DNA from: a virus
Direction: 5' to 3' (one strand)
Length of the DNA: 31,024 nt
IMG/VR virus record: IMGVR_UViG_3300037041_001844
Span: 1 to 31,024 of that record
The position numbers and the translations under genes were made by a program. Shown piece by piece: positions 5,062 to 27,951 of this stretch; position 1 is the first letter of the stretch, and every line of letters begins with the position of its first letter. The notes beneath the pieces were generated by a model that made no database searches, had not been told where the DNA came from, and saw nothing but the letters and a program-made list of their open reading frames with translations.

Positions 5062-6267
5062 ATGTTGTGGAAAAATGGTGTCAGAGATGATGAGGCCCTT
5101 AATCCTAGTGTTTTGGACACTCTCGCTAGGTCTAACCCCGCTCTCATCGAGCGATATAGACAAGCAATGGCTGACAAAAATGCAAATATCGAAGCTGCAA
5201 AGTCTCAGCAACAAGTTGGAGATTATGCTAACGTTGCGGGTGGTCTTTTAAATGACTACAACAACTCTCAAAAGCAAGATGTTGTTTTCAAGAACAAGTT
5301 CCACAACCTTGGAAACGCGCCGCGAATAAATGAGGCCGATAGGCCCGCTTATCAGGATAGAATCAGCGGAATAACAGGGCGAAACCTTGCCCAAGCTAAC
5401 GCCGATAGGGCGCAAGTTGACAACCAGTTTAAGACTGACATGGCAGTCAATGAGTACGCTGCAAATAACGCGAAGTCAGCGGCTGCAAATGATCCGATGA
5501 GTGAAGAATCGGCGCAAGCGCGTGAATACCTCAAAAGGATAGTTCCGAGCGCGGCCCAGTACCCAGGGATTGACAGGATGTCAGCGGCCCAGCTTGAAAA
5601 AGTTACCCCAGGGCTTTACAAAGCATATAACGACGCCCAGGAACTTAAAGTTAAGCAAAATATGACTGGTATCGCTGCCAAAGCCAGGCAAGATGCAATC
5701 ACAGATAAGCAAGATCAAAAGAACCAAACATTATATATCCCGGGTATCGGCCATGCTAACAACGATATGGATGCAAAAACAGTTAAAACGGCGGCTGAAT
5801 TAAAAGACAAATTTGACAGAGCGCTCAATGAGATGATTGGGCTGCGTGAAAAACATAACGGCGGCGCGATATTGGATAGAGAGGATGTTGGAAGGGGTAA
5901 GCAGCTATCAAATGAACTTTTGCTGACTTACAAGGATTTGGCTAAACTTGGTGTGCTCTCAATTTCAGATGAGAAAATTTTAAAAGCCATTATTCCCGAA
6001 GATCCACTAGCCTATAGCGGTGCTGGGCTTATGGGGCAAGATCCCATTAGGACAAATCTTGAGGGGCTTAAAAATGATGCAAATAAAGACTATGAAAAAG
6101 CCTTGAGTTTGCGGCTTAAATCCAGAGATAAACCCACGGTTCCACCCATGGACGAAAACATGGATTTGTCAGTTTTCAAAAAACAAGGCATGGACGAACT
6201 TCCTAAAAATGATCTTAAAAATGATTTGTTGATGTTTAAAAGACCAGCGGGGGGGCGTGAAAGGTGA
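5062..6267 (+). CDS. Probable internal virion (ejection) protein, helical
   Basis: 401 residues. The Shine-Dalgarno AAAGGG overlaps the end of the preceding gene, whose stop is 4 bases upstream. The protein is predicted almost wholly alpha-helical, with many Ala, Asn, Gln and Lys (for example NLAQANADRAQVDNQFKTDM and AAELKDKFDRALNEMIGLREK). No transmembrane segment, signal peptide or catalytic motif is visible. The stop overlaps the next gene's GTG start by four bases (GTGA), indicating translational coupling with the 781-residue protein. Position inside the ejection block is the main evidence; the exact role is not known. Confidence 0.55.
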   Translation: MLWKNGVRDDEALNPSVLDTLARSNPALIERYRQAMADKNANIEAAKSQQQVGDYANVAGGLLNDYNNSQKQDVVFKNKFHNLGNAPRINEADRPAYQDRISGITGRNLAQANADRAQVDNQFKTDMAVNEYAANNAKSAAANDPMSEESAQAREYLKRIVPSAAQYPGIDRMSAAQLEKVTPGLYKAYNDAQELKVKQNMTGIAAKARQDAITDKQDQKNQTLYIPGIGHANNDMDAKTVKTAAELKDKFDRALNEMIGLREKHNGGAILDREDVGRGKQLSNELLLTYKDLAKLGVLSISDEKILKAIIPEDPLAYSGAGLMGQDPIRTNLEGLKNDANKDYEKALSLRLKSRDKPTVPPMDENMDLSVFKKQGMDELPKNDLKNDLLMFKRPAGGRER

Positions 6268-10347: not shown

Positions 10348-10727
10348 TTATTTACCTCTTTTTCAGTGTAAGCAACAATCCTGCTCATGAGTTTGCCGGG
10401 TTCGGTTTTCAGATAAGAGACAATGATTGTATCGATGTTGTCACCCAGCAAATCCTGATAGCTACCATCCTTCAAAGCGAAAGGCGAGTAATAGGGATAT
10501 GTCTTTTCCGTTGTCATATCTGAGAGCTCTTTAAGTTCATCGCTATCAGGTTTAAAAGGAAACATGACAAGATTGTCACGGTATTTAAACCGAACAAACT
10601 TTGCTCCCATGTGGTACATATCCATAAAAGAAAAGCACCTTTGATACCTTTCCTGGTTGCCGCAAATATGGCAAACTTCGCGGCCTCGGTAGATATCGCA
10701 TTCCTGGTTGTTGCCGTTGTAGTTCAT
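10344..10727 (-). CDS. Conserved-looking protein with a putative zinc-binding Cys cluster
   Basis: 127 residues. The start overlaps the upstream stop as TAATG, and GGTGA serves as ribosome binding site. Near the N-terminus there are Cys residues in the order C10, C19, C22, C31 (VCHICGNQERYQRC), a CxxC pair with further Cys that could hold a zinc ion. The rest is mixed alpha/beta (VRFKYRDNLVMFPFKPD; DNIDTIIVSYL). No known family recognised. It sits between the RecT-like gene and the HTH/AT-hook gene in one operon, so a DNA-metabolism link is plausible but not shown. Confidence 0.55.
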   Translation of the reverse strand: MNYNGNNQECDIYRGREVCHICGNQERYQRCFSFMDMYHMGAKFVRFKYRDNLVMFPFKPDSDELKELSDMTTEKTYPYYSPFALKDGSYQDLLGDNIDTIIVSYLKTEPGKLMSRIVAYTEKEVNK

Positions 10728-11638
10728 TATTTCACCATTTGTTTGTATTTTTCATCGAGTTTAATCAAAGCAGCTTCCATGTTCCTTAGAGCATAAATAT
10801 CGTTACACCCTTCAATGACTGTTTCGATGTTGCCTTTCAGCTTGCCAAGTTTTGTGAACCAGTCAGTGGGCCGGGTGTTCAGAAAATCTAGCAGCGAGTC
10901 ATATAGGTCTTTGTATTCGGCCTCAAAATCGGGTGCAACGGGCTCATGCAAATCTTTGGTGACTGTTACTTCAGGTGCAACGGGTTCGGGTGTTTCAACG
11001 GCTGAAAATCCTTTCGGCGGACAATCATCCAATTTAGGTTCAATACGGCTTGCAGCTGCCATATCTATCACCTCATTCATTGAAAATACCTTTGGGTTTA
11101 CATGTACTGGCGTGACGTTTTTAGCTGCAGCAACGTCCTCAAGTTCTTCCTTGGTTTGCATCCCAAACAACACTTCAGGGAAATGAGTGCGAATCAAGAA
11201 AACAGCGGCCCGGTATTTTAGCATTTGCTCGGGAATTGATTTATATATCGCGTTTTTTGTCCAGCCAGCAATGGTTGCCATTTTCAGAGTAACCGTGTTT
11301 GTCACTCTGGTATCATCGTGCAGAATAGCGACGGCAGTTACAGACAAGGTTTCATCCTCTCCCGTCGTTTCGTAGAAAAAGTTCTTCCAAACACCGGCTT
11401 TTCTTGCCAGTGAAATAGCCATGGTTGCTGCCATGCCTGGGCGTCCATGGACTACGAAAATGCTCTGCATAGCTGCAAAAGGTGCTATGTTGGCCCGGTA
11501 AGCGAACTCAAGGGCAATAAGCACGTTTGCCGGTTTACCTTGGAAGTGGGGGGGTATTAGATCGCCGGAAGCAAGGGCTTTTGCGATGTCTTTAGTTTTC
11601 TCAAAATTGTCGTAAATTGCTAGGGATTCATTAATCAT
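10727..11638 (-). CDS. RecT-like single-strand annealing protein
   Basis: 303 residues, with GGAG ahead of the ATG. The first ~165 residues carry a pattern I associate with phage RecT-type annealing proteins: LIPPHFQGKPANVLIALEFA, then MQSIFVVHGRPGMAATMAIS, then a GW/K segment (TIAGWTKNAIYKSIPEQML) and KYRAAVFLIRTHFPEVLFGM followed by T-x-EEL-x-D. These proteins pair complementary single strands in phage recombination and replication. The C-terminal ~135 residues are a variable acidic/Pro-rich linker and a helical tail. The operon partner upstream is the replication initiator, and a RuvC-like resolvase is encoded divergently. No exonuclease partner is visible in the window. The family call is from memory. 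Confidence 0.6.
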   Translation of the reverse strand: MINESLAIYDNFEKTKDIAKALASGDLIPPHFQGKPANVLIALEFAYRANIAPFAAMQSIFVVHGRPGMAATMAISLARKAGVWKNFFYETTGEDETLSVTAVAILHDDTRVTNTVTLKMATIAGWTKNAIYKSIPEQMLKYRAAVFLIRTHFPEVLFGMQTKEELEDVAAAKNVTPVHVNPKVFSMNEVIDMAAASRIEPKLDDCPPKGFSAVETPEPVAPEVTVTKDLHEPVAPDFEAEYKDLYDSLLDFLNTRPTDWFTKLGKLKGNIETVIEGCNDIYALRNMEAALIKLDEKYKQMVK

Positions 11639-13171: not shown

Positions 13172-13663
13172 ATGAGGGTTTGTGGAATAGACTCGGGCGC
13201 TACGGGTTGCATAGTGGTTCTTGATAGTGAAGAATGCACGGCCAAGTATATGTTTTTGCCATATCGGAAAGATAAGATTTTGGATATTAGAAAAATCTAT
13301 CCCGTTTTTGATTTTGAGAAAATGGATAGAATACTTGTTGAAAAGGTGCATGCCAGGGGCGGGTTCCAGGCGTCAACCAACGGAGCAATGGGGCGCTACT
13401 TGGGACACGTTGAAATAATGCTATTTTTCTACCCGGTGAATTACATAGTTCCTACAATGTGGCAGAAAAACGCTCATGTTGGGGCCAGTGGAATAACTGC
13501 CAAAGAAAAATCACTCTACAATTTCGACAAACTCAATCCGAATTACGGCGGTATTAAAACAAGTCACAATGGACTTGCCGATGCTTTTTTTATTGCACGA
13601 TACGGGCTTGATTGCTTACGCTGTAGGTATCGTGATGATTGGAACTTCATAGATTTGGGGTAA
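13172..13663 (+). CDS. RuvC-like Holliday junction resolvase
   Basis: 163 residues, with AGGAGA ten bases before the ATG. RNase H-fold RuvC features in order: strand with GIDSGATGCIVVLD (Asp7), strand with RILVEKVHA (Glu57), a W-K type loop (PTMWQKNAHVG), and a C-terminal SHNGLADAFFIARYGL (Asp137). Phage members usually read DG-x-ADA at the last site; here the first Asp is Asn133, with His132 beside it, as some RuvC proteins use His at this metal site. The role is cutting branched DNA before packaging or during recombination, matching the RecT-like annealing protein encoded divergently. First gene of the rightward operon and directly adjacent to the phosphatase gene. Confidence 0.75.
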   Translation: MRVCGIDSGATGCIVVLDSEECTAKYMFLPYRKDKILDIRKIYPVFDFEKMDRILVEKVHARGGFQASTNGAMGRYLGHVEIMLFFYPVNYIVPTMWQKNAHVGASGITAKEKSLYNFDKLNPNYGGIKTSHNGLADAFFIARYGLDCLRCRYRDDWNFIDLG

Positions 13664-14990: not shown

Positions 14991-15019
14991 CAACTTACAC
15001 TTATATAAGGGGGGTGTTT

Positions 15020-16228
15020 ATGTTTCGATGGATTTTCTTGTTCTTGATCTTGTTCATGGGTGGATGGGGATGTTCCCATCAAAGTGAGTCAATCATCAAA
15101 CCAGACGGCAAACTTGTCGTCACTTCAGCAAGCGGGCAAAAATATTTCACTGGTTTAAAGGTTCCCGTTGGCTTTAAACCCAAGATAGTTCGTAGCGCTT
15201 TGGACGGATTGAAAGCTGACCTACCAGCTGAGTTCGATGCAAGGGTGAAAGGGTATAAGTCACCGGAATCACAGGGGAACTGCGGCAGTTGTTGGGCATT
15301 CTCCATGTCAGCTACAATCCAAGATTCTTACAAGTATCAAACTGGTAAAGACTTCGATACTTCAGAGCAACATGTTCTGTCATGCACCAAGCCGGGAGAG
15401 TATTCTTGCAACGGTGGTTTTTTCGACTACAATCGTCACATGACTCCATTCGGCGGTGTAACAGGCGCGTCGTGGCCCTATTCCGGCACTGATGAGGCAT
15501 GTAAAAGCGGGCTCAATCATCAAATCAAAATCAAACAATGGGCCTACCTACCAGGCGGTGAAAATCCTCCAATTTCAGAGATCAAAGCAGCTATATACCG
15601 CTATGGTATCGTGAGTGTAGGCGTTGCGGCAACGGATGGGATGTCTAACTATCGCGGTGGAATATGGGCGGGCGACGGCTCGACATCTCTCAATCATGCA
15701 GTCGCTTTGGTTGGCTGGTCAGATGCGGGGCAGTACTGGGTGATGAAGAATAGTTGGGGTAACTGGGGAGAGCAAGGGTACATGAGAATTAAATACGGTG
15801 CAAACGGTATTGGAACATGGGCCAATTATGTTGTTTTTGAAGATAATCCAACGCCCGATCCAAACCCAAACCCCGATCCTACTCCAAACCCAACTCCGGA
15901 TCCGGATCCTACACCGCCGCCCCCGCCCCCAGAGTGTGAGCCCAAGCCCTACGCTGATACTGGCTACGGTGACCAGATAAAAGTTAGAGTCGGGGCCACA
16001 GTAATGCTTGGCACTAAAGCGCGGCCTGGTCACTATTATTACTGGACTGCAGAGCCCGCCTTTGAAAATGGGGCAACACCCAAGGAAGCGAAAATTAAGT
16101 ATTCACCAAGAATCACCAAGCGCCTCACTGTTCACGCCGTGACGCAGTGTGGTGAAGCAATTGATTCGGTGACAGTCAACGCGATGAAAAGTTATAATCT
16201 GCAGATGGTTCCAGAAGTGCAGTATTGA
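15020..16228 (+). CDS. Exported papain-family (C1A) cysteine protease, probable lipoprotein
   Basis: 402 residues from the ATG at 15020, chosen over a GTG at 15014 because the six-G ribosome binding site (15009-15014) overlaps that GTG. The N-terminus is a signal peptide ending GGWGC; Cys18 may be lipid-modified, though the lipobox is not canonical. The papain domain spans ~65-275: oxyanion Gln85 and nucleophile Cys91 in SQGNCGSCWAFS, then SCNGG, His226 in LNHAVALVGW, and Asn244 in MKNSWGNWGEQGYMRI. The usual ~100-residue inhibitory propeptide is shortened to ~45. A Pro/Asp/Asn linker (277-304) leads to a ~95-residue beta-rich C-terminal domain with two Cys. All catalytic residues are present. 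Papain-family enzymes are rare in phages. It follows the endolysin with its own promoter and a terminator. Confidence 0.85.
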   Translation: MFRWIFLFLILFMGGWGCSHQSESIIKPDGKLVVTSASGQKYFTGLKVPVGFKPKIVRSALDGLKADLPAEFDARVKGYKSPESQGNCGSCWAFSMSATIQDSYKYQTGKDFDTSEQHVLSCTKPGEYSCNGGFFDYNRHMTPFGGVTGASWPYSGTDEACKSGLNHQIKIKQWAYLPGGENPPISEIKAAIYRYGIVSVGVAATDGMSNYRGGIWAGDGSTSLNHAVALVGWSDAGQYWVMKNSWGNWGEQGYMRIKYGANGIGTWANYVVFEDNPTPDPNPNPDPTPNPTPDPDPTPPPPPPECEPKPYADTGYGDQIKVRVGATVMLGTKARPGHYYYWTAEPAFENGATPKEAKIKYSPRITKRLTVHAVTQCGEAIDSVTVNAMKSYNLQMVPEVQY

Positions 16229-20728: not shown

Positions 20729-20749
20729 TTACGACAAAAAAGTGCATTA

Positions 20750-20807
20750 GGGGGTAGGGGGGTGGGTAGTCCACCCACTGGGTAGGTAGGGGGGTAGGTA
20801 GGTAGGT
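20750..20807 (+). repeat. G-tract/GGTA repeat tract with hairpin
   Basis: Five or more runs of three to six G, joined by short TA or T spacers, including GGTA repeats up to the ATG at 20808. A hairpin GTGGGT-AGTCC-ACCCAC (20762-20778) sits inside. The G-rich strand is the coding strand and could form a G-quadruplex; the last GGTAGG serves as ribosome binding site. Confidence 0.6.
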
Positions 20808-21047
20808 ATGAAAAAGAATCAACGGGAAAGAACCGTAAAATTTTTGGAAGCGCAGGCTTTCACCTTTGCAGTAATGCAATCACTTCGCGAAACGGGCGCG
20901 GTTAATAGTCGCATGGTTGAACTTGCGTCCAATGCGCATTCTATCGCTGCGCAGGCTATTGGCGATATTGTCGACAAGCATCCAAGGCTTGCGAAAACTG
21001 TCGATAAGATTTTTAAAGAGATCACGGTGACAAATGAGCAAAAATAG
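20808..21047 (+). CDS. Small helical protein of unknown function
   Basis: 79 residues, starting at the end of the G-rich tract. Predicted all-helical: RERTVKFLEAQAFTFAVMQS, NSRMVELASNAHSIAAQAIG, and DKHPRLAKTVDKIFKEI. Neutral overall with basic ends. It overlaps the next gene by 14 bases, forming a chain of small genes leading to the terminase. Not recognised. Confidence 0.5.
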   Translation: MKKNQRERTVKFLEAQAFTFAVMQSLRETGAVNSRMVELASNAHSIAAQAIGDIVDKHPRLAKTVDKIFKEITVTNEQK

Positions 21048-21300
21048 GCCCAAAGAACAAGAACCGTCGCTTGATGTAAACGGGAAGTTTTTCTCAGTGG
21101 TGAAAGTCTCGCACCTGCTTTATGTCGCCTATGAGATAGAGGTAGCTAAAGGGATTGTCGTAGGGGTTAGGTGCTTATCCCGAGCGCCTGACCAGCAACA
21201 TACTGCAGTGGGAGCGGCAACCAGTGAGATATGGCCCGCGTCACGGGATCAGACTATTGAGTCGGCTTTCCCAGGGGGAGTCGATGCAAAGATTACTTGA
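21034..21300 (+). CDS. Small protein of unknown function
   Basis: 88 residues, with GAGAT before the ATG inside the preceding gene. A short beta-rich fold is suggested (GKFFSVVKVSHLLYVAYEIE, GIVVGVRCLSR). The 3' end overlaps the membrane protein gene at 21284 by 17 bases. No signal peptide or known motif. Not recognised; position just before packaging genes is the only context. Confidence 0.45.
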   Translation: MSKNRPKEQEPSLDVNGKFFSVVKVSHLLYVAYEIEVAKGIVVGVRCLSRAPDQQHTAVGAATSEIWPASRDQTIESAFPGGVDAKIT

Positions 21301-21587: not shown

Positions 21588-21884
21588 ATGCCACAACACA
21601 AAGGTTGTAAAAAAGATGGGGGTAGGAAAAAGGGCTCAAAGAATAAGCGCCCCCAAATGGCCCCTCTCAGGATACAGCTTCGCGACGTAGGTTTTAACCT
21701 GGGCGTTGAAATGATTAAATTCTACGAAACTGTCAAGGATGAAAAAATTAAGTTTCAGCTGTTTGAGCTGATGTCAAAATATACCAACGTGACGCCAATA
21801 GTCGAAACTTACGTTGATCCCGGCGAAACAGAGGATGATGAAACCGAGGATGATACTGACTCTCTATTGGCAGCGGTTCAATGA
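21588..21884 (+). CDS. Small terminase subunit-like protein
   Basis: 98 residues. The basic N-terminus CKKDGGRKKGSKNK is the GRPKGSKNK-type DNA-binding start common in small terminases. The middle is helical (VGFNLGVEMIKFYETVKDEKI and FELMSKYTNV) for oligomerisation, and the C-terminus is strongly acidic (PGETEDDETEDDTDS), as in the portion that contacts the large subunit. It is shorter than the usual 140-180 residues. The stop overlaps the large subunit start as ATGA. Gene order and sequence pattern support the call; the phased repeats just upstream are its likely target. Confidence 0.72.
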   Translation: MPQHKGCKKDGGRKKGSKNKRPQMAPLRIQLRDVGFNLGVEMIKFYETVKDEKIKFQLFELMSKYTNVTPIVETYVDPGETEDDETEDDTDSLLAAVQ

Positions 21885-23212
21885 CAAAACGGGAACGGGC
21901 GATAGCAAAGCTTTATGAGCGGGGCATACTTCACTGGAAACTGAGGCCTGAACAAAAGCAGCTGCGCAACATGCTTGAAGCATCGCCGACAGACTTAGCT
22001 TGTTTCAATATTTCGCGTCGTTTTGGAAAATCCACAACATGCTCTTTATATTCAGTGGAACAAGCATACCGCAAAAAGCAAAAGATCTTGTATGCAACGG
22101 CCTTTCTGACCGATTTGGAAAACTTCATAACTCCCATTTTCGAGTGGTGTCTTAATGAGTGCCCCGATCATCTGAGGCCGATATGGAAAGCGAGTAAAAA
22201 GGAATACCACTTCAAGAACGGTTCAATCATCAAACTCATTGGGCTTGATAAAAACTCAAACAGTTTACGCGGTAACAATATCGATATTCTGATAGTTGAC
22301 GAGGCCGCTTTTGTCAAAAACCTAGCCTACCTTTACCGCTCTGTTATCATTCCGGCCACAATGAAACGCAAGTTTAAACTCATATTCCCATCGACGCCCC
22401 CGGAGTCGCCGGAACACTTTTGGAGCGCGGAGTTAATCCATAAAGCCAAAGCCAAAGGCACCTATATTGAGCTCACGATTGACGATATCAGCGATCTACC
22501 ACCGGAAGAAAAGAAACGCTTGCTTGATGAGGTAGGCGGGCCAAATTCAGTTACGGCTTTGAGGGAATTTTATTGCAAGTGCATTGCCGACGTCACCCGC
22601 ACCATTGCCGCTGAGTTCAGCCGGGCAAAGTTTGTTCGGGAGTTTGTTCCAGACCATGTGAAATGGATGATTTTCGGTGATACTGGGGGGGTTCAAGATA
22701 AGACGGTATTCCTTGAGGTAGGGTATGACCATGTTTCGGGCCTGGTAGTGTTCCGGGATGAACTTGAGTTTGAAAACTCAACTCCAAGCTCTAAAATCAT
22801 CGCCGCTTTCAAAGCTAAGTGGCCCGGTCATATGACTCTCATCATGGACGCCCCAGGGCAGTTATTAATAGATTACTCAAGTTTAGGGCTACCCGCCGCC
22901 CTACCTCAAAAGGATGATTTTGGAGCGGGCTTGTTGCTGCTTAACAACTCTTTTTACAACAACACGACAGTCATTAACCCAAATTGTGCATTACTCATAA
23001 GGACGCTGGAAGGGGGCTTGCTGAACAAGCAAAGAAGCGATTACGAACGTAGTGAAGCGCTCGGTCATTGTGACGCCGTGGCCGCTGCAATTTACGCGCT
23101 GCGTTGCGTTGATCGCTCAACAGATTTACGGCCAAAGCCGAAACGTGAACAGATATTTTTCATTGAACGGGAACCCGAACATATTCAGCAAATAAAAGGG
23201 CTATCATTTTAA
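21881..23212 (+). CDS. Large terminase subunit (packaging ATPase/nuclease)
   Basis: 443 residues, ATGA-coupled to the small subunit. ATPase domain: Walker A variant SRRFGKST (45-52), motif SNSLRGNNIDILIVDEAAF with Walker B Asp140-Glu141, then the coupling motif FPSTPPES (169-176). Nuclease domain (RNase H fold): Asp267 in MIFGDTGG, Asp323 in LIMDAPG, and Asp398 in GHCDAVAAAIYAL. It drives DNA into the prohead through the portal and cuts the concatemer. Length is normal for this group. The portal gene begins 12 bases after its stop. Confidence 0.92.
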   Translation: MTKRERAIAKLYERGILHWKLRPEQKQLRNMLEASPTDLACFNISRRFGKSTTCSLYSVEQAYRKKQKILYATAFLTDLENFITPIFEWCLNECPDHLRPIWKASKKEYHFKNGSIIKLIGLDKNSNSLRGNNIDILIVDEAAFVKNLAYLYRSVIIPATMKRKFKLIFPSTPPESPEHFWSAELIHKAKAKGTYIELTIDDISDLPPEEKKRLLDEVGGPNSVTALREFYCKCIADVTRTIAAEFSRAKFVREFVPDHVKWMIFGDTGGVQDKTVFLEVGYDHVSGLVVFRDELEFENSTPSSKIIAAFKAKWPGHMTLIMDAPGQLLIDYSSLGLPAALPQKDDFGAGLLLLNNSFYNNTTVINPNCALLIRTLEGGLLNKQRSDYERSEALGHCDAVAAAIYALRCVDRSTDLRPKPKREQIFFIEREPEHIQQIKGLSF

Positions 23213-25569: not shown

Positions 25570-26514
25570 ATGAGTGATGAAATGGTTTCAATGGATGCGG
25601 GCAGTGCGCCCGCTGAAACAAGCGAAACACAAGAAACAACCGATACTGAAGAAACGACAGAGGGCGAGGGCAAAAAGCCCAAAGCCCCAGCGGTTCCCAA
25701 GCCCAAAGCGCCCCAGGTTCGCAAGTATAAAATCGGTGAAGAAGAAGTTTCCCTGACCGATGATGATATCAAGCGCGACTATTCTAAATGGAAGGCAAGC
25801 GACAAGGCATTTCGGGAAGCTGCGCAGGCCCGAAAAGCAACCGAGGATTTTATGAAAGCGCTTCAAGAGGATCCCGAAAAGATTCTCAGTGACAAGCGCA
25901 TTCCTTTGGACAAAAGGAAACTTGCCGAAAAGTGGTTGCTCGAGTCGATTGATTCCGAGCTCAATCCAACGGATCCGAGAGATGCCAAGCTGACTGATAT
26001 TGAAAAGAAACTGAAGGAATACGAGGATAGGGACAAAAAAGCGGCTGAAGAAAAGCAAAGCCAGGAATATGAGCAGGCGAAAGAACAGCGCAAGCAGGCA
26101 ATCAGCCAAACCTTGCTCAAGGCTATGCAATCGACTCACCTTTCAGCCGATCCAGAAACGTCGGCTAGTGTGCTTAGGGAAATGGCGCTTTACATGCGGG
26201 CCTGCAAAGAGAGGGGAGAGGATGTAACCCCTGACCAGCTTGTTGAGCATATCCATAACCAGCGTTTCACCCAGTTTTATGCCTTGGCCCATCAGTTTAA
26301 TGGTGATGAGCTCATAGAGTTCCTTGGTGATGAGATTGTCAACCGGATCCGAAAGACCGATATTGAGCGTATTCGCAAAGCAAGGGGAGGTGGAGCTCCT
26401 GACAAATCTTACAGAGATGAAAACCGCGCCAACAACCAGCCCAGTCAGACACGCAAAACCATGGATCCATGGCAAGCCCGGGAACATGCCAACAAAGTGT
26501 TGTTCGGCAAATAA
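25570..26514 (+). CDS. Capsid scaffolding protein
   Basis: 314 residues. Acidic, low-complexity N-terminus (TQETTDTEETTEGEG), a Lys/Pro stretch (KKPKAPAVPKPKAP), a small beta segment (YKIGEEEVSLTDDDIKRDYS), then long charged helices (EKKLKEYEDRDKKAAEEKQS), and a basic C-terminus suited to binding capsid protein. No membrane or enzyme motif. The place between portal and major capsid protein, together with the high charge and coiled-coil content, is the usual hallmark of scaffolds, which are removed from the prohead on maturation. Confidence 0.8.
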   Translation: MSDEMVSMDAGSAPAETSETQETTDTEETTEGEGKKPKAPAVPKPKAPQVRKYKIGEEEVSLTDDDIKRDYSKWKASDKAFREAAQARKATEDFMKALQEDPEKILSDKRIPLDKRKLAEKWLLESIDSELNPTDPRDAKLTDIEKKLKEYEDRDKKAAEEKQSQEYEQAKEQRKQAISQTLLKAMQSTHLSADPETSASVLREMALYMRACKERGEDVTPDQLVEHIHNQRFTQFYALAHQFNGDELIEFLGDEIVNRIRKTDIERIRKARGGGAPDKSYRDENRANNQPSQTRKTMDPWQAREHANKVLFGK

Positions 26515-26543
26515 AAATCACCAAAAAAATGCATTACAAATAT

Positions 26544-26611
26544 GAGCGCCTACCCTTTTTAGGATGCCGCTCTCTATTTGTGACTGCCTACCCTTTTATG
26601 GATGCCAGTTA
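26544..26611 (+). promoter_or_regulatory. Tandem RNA-like hairpins with conserved core upstream of the capsid gene
   Basis: Two copies of a 19-base core (CCTACCCTTTTTAGGATGC at 26549-26567 and CCTACCCTTTTATGGATGC at 26587-26605) match at 17 of 19 positions. Each is closed by a different stem: GAGCG/CGCTC for the first, TGACTG/CAGTTA (one G-T pair) for the second. Different but complementary stems around the same core point to a structured RNA or a protein-binding hairpin pair in the leader of the major capsid gene. Confidence 0.6.
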
Positions 26612-26623
26612 ACAATCAATGTT

Positions 26624-26652
26624 TTGGTTAAAATTATTTTATCACTTTAAAT
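26624..26652 (+). promoter_or_regulatory. Possible promoter before the capsid gene
   Basis: TTGGTT, a 17-base spacer, then TTAAAT, in an AT-rich stretch. It lies after the tandem hairpins, so if it is used the hairpins would not be in that transcript; they would be in readthrough mRNA from the scaffold gene. Confidence 0.3.
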
Positions 26653-26673
26653 CATTTTATAAGGGTTTTAAAC

Positions 26674-27900
26674 ATGTCTACAAATACACCTACTACACTT
26701 GCATCCAGGCTTAAGGAAATTTATCCTGAAGGCCCCACAGTTCTTGTACCTGCAGCAAACGAACTTGTTGGCAAGCGCCTCAAGTTTAAAAAGGATTTGC
26801 AGCATGGTGAAAAAGTGCGCTTTGATGTTCAGCTTTCCGGCGAACAAGGCTTTTCTATGGGAACCGGCGAAATTACCTTGAACGGCTCGGTTGCTCAAAT
26901 CAGTGAAAAAGCTGAAGTGACCGGCTTTTCGATTGTTCTTCAGTCGAACGTATCTTACGACGCAATAAGCCGCGCTAAGACCAGCAAGCAAGCATTTGCT
27001 GCTTTCAACAACTCCAAGTTTATCCCAGCTGCAGAGAGTTTCAGAACCCGTCAAGAAATCCTTGCAATGCATGGACGCCAAGGGATCGGAACTCTGTCAG
27101 GCAACGCGTCGGGCCAAGTGCTGACAATCAGCGCAGCAACATGGTGTTCAGCTATGCTACTGACAATGAAAGGCGCTACAATCGAAGCATGGACCGCTGT
27201 AGCAGGTTCCGGCTCTCAGCATGACAGCGACTTGACCGTTGGCGCTCTTTCAATCGCAAACAGAACAATCACAGTGGTTGGAACTTGTTCGGCCCTAGTA
27301 ACAGGTGACATCCTTTTCTTGAAGCATCAAAGATCGGTTGGACCTATCGGCCTCATGGACATTGCAAAGAATGCTGGCACTCTTTACAACATCAGCGCAG
27401 TGACATATGAACTCTGGAAAGCAAATGCTTATGATGTCGGCACTTCGGCCCTGACTCTGGGCAAAATATCGCTTGCATCTGCTCTGGCAGCTGACAAGGG
27501 ATGCGCGGAAAAACTGACTTGCTTGGTGCCTAACAAGGCGTTCCAAGGAATGGTTAACGATCAAGCGGCCCTGAGAGAATACGGCGCAAACTACAATAGC
27601 GGTAAAGCTGAAAACGGCTTTGAGTCGATTGTGTTCCATGGCAGTACAGGAATCATAGAAATTGTCCCCTATATGTTTTGTAAAGAGGGTGAATTTGTAA
27701 TGTTTCCAGAGCGTTACACCTACCTGATTGGTTCGGAAGAAATGACAAACCAAATCGGCCAAAGCGGTGACATCTATTTCGATCTTGAGAGCACCTCAAG
27801 CAAGCAGCTGCGCTACTTTTCTGATTGGACCGTTTTCTGTGAGAAACCCGGTTACATTGTCTACGGAACCCGTTCCGATGGGCTGGCTTTGCATACTTAA
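26674..27900 (+). CDS. Major capsid protein, HK97-fold type
   Basis: 408 residues, with AAGGG before the ATG. Typical head-protein features: N-terminal segment with ASRLKEIYPEGPTVLVPAAN, strand pair GEKVRFDVQLSGEQGFSMGTGEI, helix region SRAKTSKQAFAAFNNSKF and MDIAKNAGTLYNISAV, and the C-terminal segment KEGEFVMFPERYTYLIGSE. There is an inserted beta domain around residues 140-215 (ASGQVLTISAATWCSAML ... GDILFLKHQ). It lies directly after the scaffold gene and has a strong terminator behind it, as expected for a highly expressed head gene. Residue-level homology to a named phage capsid was not checked. Confidence 0.82.
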   Translation: MSTNTPTTLASRLKEIYPEGPTVLVPAANELVGKRLKFKKDLQHGEKVRFDVQLSGEQGFSMGTGEITLNGSVAQISEKAEVTGFSIVLQSNVSYDAISRAKTSKQAFAAFNNSKFIPAAESFRTRQEILAMHGRQGIGTLSGNASGQVLTISAATWCSAMLLTMKGATIEAWTAVAGSGSQHDSDLTVGALSIANRTITVVGTCSALVTGDILFLKHQRSVGPIGLMDIAKNAGTLYNISAVTYELWKANAYDVGTSALTLGKISLASALAADKGCAEKLTCLVPNKAFQGMVNDQAALREYGANYNSGKAENGFESIVFHGSTGIIEIVPYMFCKEGEFVMFPERYTYLIGSEEMTNQIGQSGDIYFDLESTSSKQLRYFSDWTVFCEKPGYIVYGTRSDGLALHT

Positions 27901-27917: not shown

Positions 27918-27951
27918 GGCGTGCCATTTAAATCAAATGGCATGCCTTTTT
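27918..27951 (+). terminator. Strong terminator after the major capsid gene
   Basis: GGCGTGCCATTT (27918-27929) pairs with AAATGGCATGCC (27935-27946) with one G-T pair, a five-base loop, then TTTTT. Confidence 0.88.

Follow-up and report, generated by a model that had tools for sequence, protein, structure and literature searches.

Tandem hairpins with a shared core form a putative leader RNA element of a phage major capsid protein gene

The leader of the major capsid protein (MCP) gene of an uncultivated phage carries two hairpins that share a near-identical core and are closed by unlike stems. This element is real and selected, undescribed in the libraries that we searched and narrow in its distribution, and it is probably a protein-recognised, cis-acting element in the leader of the MCP mRNA that sets the translation or stability of this message. 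We analysed it in an IMG/VR virus record of 31,024 bases, called the window here, and in related contigs.

Coordinates refer to the + strand of the window unless stated otherwise. The MCP gene (26674..27900, 408 aa) was identified by a match to phrog_14242 'major head protein' (E 2.8e-11) together with the gene order terminase, portal, scaffold-like ORF and MCP. The scaffold-like ORF (25570..26514, 314 aa), placed between portal and MCP, probably encodes a scaffolding protein; it has homologues in relatives, one of them at 30% in G006, the most distant carrier of the element, and a family search with it gave zero family matches. It is followed by a promoter-like 14-mer, the putative MCP promoter (26524..26537), directly 5' of hairpin 1 (26543..26573), then by hairpin 2 (26581..26611) and an AU-rich spacer (26612..26673) that contains a probable MCP ribosome-binding site, AAGGGT, at about 26660-26665. 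An intrinsic terminator with a 12-bp stem and a T-tract lies after the MCP gene (27918..27946). Elsewhere, the window encodes a papain-family cysteine protease (15014-16228; Peptidase_C1, E 1.9e-41) with homologues in G003 and G005, a RecT-like recombinase (10727-11638, - strand) and a Holliday junction resolvase (13172-13663, + strand).

The two hairpins are located 60-130 nt 5' of the MCP start. In hairpin 1, arms GAGCG/CGCTC form 5 pairs around the core CCUACCC-UUUUUA-GGAUGC (CCTACCCTTTTTAGGATGC, 26549-26567), and in hairpin 2, arms TGACTG/CAGTTA form 6 pairs, one of them G.U, around CCUACCC-UUUUAU-GGAUGC (CCTACCCTTTTATGGATGC, 26587-26605). The sequence of the window thus bears out what a preliminary description had reported, namely a 19-base core repeated with its starts 38 nt apart at 17/19 identity, and flanking stems that differ from one another yet are each self-complementary. 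When the trimmed leader was folded, the central stem pairs of both hairpins had probabilities of about 0.98, the core pairs being less certain than the stem pairs in the energy model, and a wider stretch of 96 nt folded with z = -2.5 relative to shuffles. A count of 17/19 direct repeats separated by 25-79 nt, in which each copy is closed by at least 5 pairs, gave two in the window and none in 5 mononucleotide shuffles; both window counts are expected to be this one repeat at neighbouring offsets.

Relatives carry the same arrangement. An MCP protein search of IMG/VR gave five further contigs with 83-91% MCP identity, L004 and L006 among them having an identical leader, and the pair was present upstream of MCP in 5/5 of the first-found relatives, with a core spacing of 37-38 nt in intergenic DNA that has otherwise diverged. 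A search with a tandem-core pattern added L013/L024, where MCP is 51% identical and the pair, with both cores perfect, has a spacing of 41 nt. The MCP identities of the relatives were 91, 91, 83, 91 and 51%, with 74% in L123, a contig found by a terminase search. As L123 was absent from model building, it is an out-of-sample case: the prebuilt model finds one hairpin there, upstream of MCP (5728-5760, E 2e-4), with the core CCCACCC-GCAA-GGACGC and a 5-bp compensating stem, while the upstream (first) hairpin seems degenerate. Across the window and six relatives, the strong copies that the model detects number just two per contig and lie at MCP. A third, weak match in G006 (14.3 bits), which seems to lie inside coding DNA, was judged to be due to chance.

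In the intergenic alignment, the two cores hold nearly all invariant columns, with the shared form CCUACCC-N6-GGAUGC. To score covariation, we used a structure with an 8-bp stem, one C-G and then two C-G pairs in twelve hairpins from 6 genomes, a set in which the pair-bearing genomes are few and the two copies per genome may lack independence. Paired cells made up 83%, compared with 64% after column shuffling, which leaves relatedness in place as a factor, and with 26-53% in controls slid out of the true register, which keep relatedness. Double-change cells numbered 33, against 14.8 in shuffles, and the covariation score was 0.583 against 0.228, a value reached by 0/500 shuffles. With L024 left out and L123 added, 86.8% of cells were paired, with 31 double changes versus 12.8 and a score of 0.658 versus 0.231. 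The arms are also specific to their own hairpin: 69/84 arm positions were paired across the 12 hairpins of the 6 genomes, whereas arms exchanged between hairpins gave a mean of 43.8 pairs and at most 61 in 20,000 permutations. L024 is a poor fit to the two-hairpin model, its arms giving 3/7 pairs in each hairpin.

From the closing stem inwards, the core reads C.C, C-G, Y.Y, A.R, C-G, C-G, so that near-invariant C-G pairs flank the C.C, Y.Y and A.R mismatches, and it is capped by a variable loop made up of C and 4-7 further nt. Over eleven rows, the Y.Y position is U.U in 8, U.C in 2 and C.C in 1, the A.R position is A.A in 10 and A.G in 1, and the first C-G after A.R is replaced by U-G once; the closing pair that adjoins the core is G-C or A-U in 11/11. 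The inner six stem pairs include 6 G.U and 0 A.C which, small as these numbers are, points to the + strand acting as RNA. Stem changes that compensate across relatives and a constant position upstream of one gene, MCP, in every carrier are features expected of a structured cis-acting leader RNA. The cores are near-identical within and between genomes while the stems differ but compensate, and we therefore reject simple tandem duplication, as the preliminary description had done in arguing for a selected structure; the refutation test that it set, a search for further copies with compensating stem changes, left its reading standing, as the relatives carry such copies, one of which, in L123, was found by the prebuilt covariance model.

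Predicted folding does not favour two separate hairpins in every genome. Stems of the two-hairpin form reach central probabilities of about 0.9 or more in the window, L003, L004 and L007. For L005 and L024 (2/6 genomes), by contrast, folding in silico prefers to pair the 3' half of hairpin 1 with the 5' half of hairpin 2, yielding a rod in which, in L024, the same CCUACC and GGAUGC strands meet again, now from different hairpins. The form that covaries is the two-hairpin form. The predicted rod may be a second state or a product of the folding program; if the former, cross-hairpin re-pairing in some relatives could make the element a two-state switch.

Turning to the transcript, the window sequence at 26524..26537 differs from AAAATCTGCATTAC at 2 positions. 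The exact 14-mer occupies the same place in L117 (=L004) and L119 (=L007), with a similar one in L003, and AAAAnnTGCATTAC directly 5' of hairpin 1 is common to the window, L003, L004 and L007. At the same place L005 has a sigma-70-like site, GTGACA-18-CATAAT (10/12), while no promoter-like motif was recognised in L024. Terminators that differ in sequence follow MCP in 7/7 genomes (the window and six relatives). Taken together, the promoter-like motif 5' of hairpin 1 and the terminator after MCP suggest a putative monocistronic MCP mRNA that starts shortly before hairpin 1. This makes it less likely that the hairpins are a site at which scaffold and capsid messages are separated by processing, as the preliminary description had proposed: MCP is seemingly its own transcription unit, with a promoter-like motif immediately upstream of hairpin 1.

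The window, L117 and L119 have a slightly changed copy of the promoter-like motif in the intergenic region that precedes their packaging operon. In the window (20737-20807), this second 14-mer copy is followed by a G-rich leader, GGGGGTAG..., with a hairpin GTGGGT/ACCCAC and then GTAG repeats. This leader lies ahead of a small conserved gene with which the packaging region begins, and it includes GGGUAGG, to which the CCUACCC core is complementary. L117 and L119 have similar packaging leaders with different hairpins. In G006 (L024/L031), the terminase large subunit is about 25% identical to that of the window (21881-23212), as compared with 51% for MCP, which suggests that the packaging module may have been exchanged in G006 while the MCP leader stayed with MCP.

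How might such an element act? In the reading that we favour, the hairpin pair would be an RNA element that acts in cis from the 5' leader of the MCP mRNA. A protein would bind both cores, probably as a dimer or cooperatively because the spacing is near-constant (37-41 nt). The bound protein would then set the translation or lifetime of the MCP message, most likely so that capsid protein is made in step with head assembly. Candidates for the binder are MCP, the scaffold, another virion protein or a host RNA-binding protein. The proteins common to G006 and the window are structural or packaging proteins, barring one uncertain match of a small ORF (21034-21300; 37% over 43 aa), and no dedicated regulatory gene was found that G006 has in common with it. 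A phage-coded binder, if there is one, would therefore likely be a virion or assembly protein; otherwise the binder would be a host protein.

The suggestion in the preliminary description of a translational operator for capsid protein is plausible. However, about 60 nt separate the end of hairpin 2 from the MCP start codon, the spacer being of similar length in relatives, so that simple ribosome occlusion is not obvious, and this gap of about 60 nt sets the pair apart from autogenous operators, in which the site overlaps or adjoins the ribosome-binding site. Autogenous control by an assembly protein takes about a third of our confidence in a protein-recognised element. More specifically, we consider it possible, if rather unlikely, that the capsid or scaffolding protein binds the tandem operator and represses or stabilises the message according to the state of assembly. 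If true, this would be RNA-level feedback on tailed-phage head assembly.

A protein that recognises the cores is not the only way to account for such a leader. Hairpins at the extreme 5' end might shield the MCP mRNA from 5'-end-dependent decay, or be a target for a double-strand RNase, with no dedicated binder. The placement of the hairpins just after the putative promoter, the AU-rich spacer leading to the ribosome site and the 3' terminator all fit this idea, but neither plain stabilisers nor RNase III sites call for a fixed core of 13 nt, and here the core is near-invariant while the stems drift; we hold it to be a tentative alternative of low probability. It is less likely still that the element works as single-stranded DNA or a cruciform in the initiation of replication or packaging and is near MCP by chance. 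Packaging genes are near, and a stem that is self-complementary around an asymmetric core might also act as ssDNA. Yet the inner stem has G.U but no A.C mismatches, the pattern of a single transcribed strand (small numbers), and the element stays with MCP in G006 despite a terminase of such low identity.

The two remaining alternatives are very improbable. One of these, a tandem ligand-binding, riboswitch-like RNA, was raised in the preliminary description and is left without support: two small conserved cores with variable closing stems do resemble tandem small-ligand hairpins, but there are zero Rfam matches, no metabolic gene context and no visible expression platform, and the element is confined to one phage clade. 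The other, to which we likewise give very little credence, is that GGGUAGG in the packaging-operon leader base-pairs with the CCUACCC cores, and that this pairing coordinates the two late transcripts. Perfect complements do occur in the window (20752, 20780 and 20792) and in L119, and both leaders have the same promoter-like 14-mer. However, L117 has only GGGUAG and L125 only GGUAG, GGGUAGG is absent from the packaging leader of G003 and G006, and the conservation of GGAUGC is left unexplained.

In line with the preliminary description, which could match the motif to no named RNA, Rfam 15 at the gathering threshold gave zero matches in the window, L003, L005, L007, L024 and L123, and a permissive Rfam search gave only chance-level matches. 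An intrinsic terminator was rejected, as neither hairpin was called as one and the terminator sits after MCP. So was a CsrA/RsmA site: such sites are hairpins that carry GGA in their apical loop, whereas here GG pairs with CC in every modelled copy, CCUACCC is conserved too and the apical loop is variable.

Searches of wider collections point to a narrow distribution. Exact core and strict tandem patterns had zero matches in viral_contigs, and a degenerate tandem pattern returned 91 stretches, with closing stems on both copies only in the known clade. In the genome collection, 3 matches to the tandem pattern were judged to be chance, being without stems or capsid context, and an MCP search of genome_contigs found zero relatives, so that no prophage or host was identified. 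Mimicry of a host RNA gained no support from a model search of 398 Pseudomonadota genomes, a shallow one with only 17 candidates scored per genome: it gave 13 isolated weak matches (22-26 bits), judged to be chance, ten of which were inspected and had zero tandem partners. The model had zero matches upstream of MCP in distant phages with MCP identities of 22-30% (CP017838, L126 and L127), and a portal-based scan gave zero further relatives. In L126, the intergenic region before the 30%-identity MCP (about 13,460-13,628) holds GGCGC-N5-GCTACC in tandem as well as a long hairpin, ACCGTATTAAAG.../...CTTTAATACGGT. These may belong to a different element of analogous kind; the GGCGC/CUACC repeats could not be linked to the one described here. 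A literature search, with most subscription journals outside its coverage, found zero descriptions of the element.

Tailed phages need their head proteins to be made in suitable ratios, and to our knowledge few RNA targets have been defined for the control of these ratios. A leader RNA fixed to MCP, with a sharp core and free stems, is a small, testable target for a regulator search, and the element would also be useful as an annotation landmark for this uncultivated phage clade.

Several known systems offer points of comparison. The guanidine-II (mini-ykkC) riboswitch likewise has two small tandem hairpins with conserved unpaired nucleotides and variable stems, but its conserved nucleotides are in the apical loop and it is associated with bacterial transporter genes, whereas the element described here is without an Rfam match. 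In P22, autoregulation of the scaffolding protein provides post-transcriptional control of head-protein output in a dsDNA phage; that case concerns the scaffold, while the element here adjoins MCP, and we know of no RNA element of the tandem-hairpin kind in P22 autoregulation. In the ssRNA phages MS2 and PP7, the capsid protein recognises a short irregular stem-loop and thereby controls translation. The hairpins here are also short irregular stem-loops, for which capsid-protein binding is only a candidate; the MS2/PP7 operators are single hairpins at the replicase start of RNA phages, in contrast to the capsid gene's own leader in a tailed phage. The MS2 operator is a subject of PMC4751978. 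In T4/RB69, the gene 43 operator is a leader hairpin about 40 nt before the start codon, with a conserved top and a varying remainder, and is bound by a protein that sets gene 43 expression (PMC3014915). The likeness to the MCP leader lies in a hairpin before a phage gene that combines a conserved part with a varying remainder. The gene 43 operator, however, is one hairpin with a conserved apical loop, its bound sequence overlaps the ribosome site and it belongs to a DNA polymerase gene (PMC3014915), whereas the MCP leader has two hairpins in which the internal-loop core is conserved and the apical loop varies, precedes a capsid gene and has a binder that is only putative.
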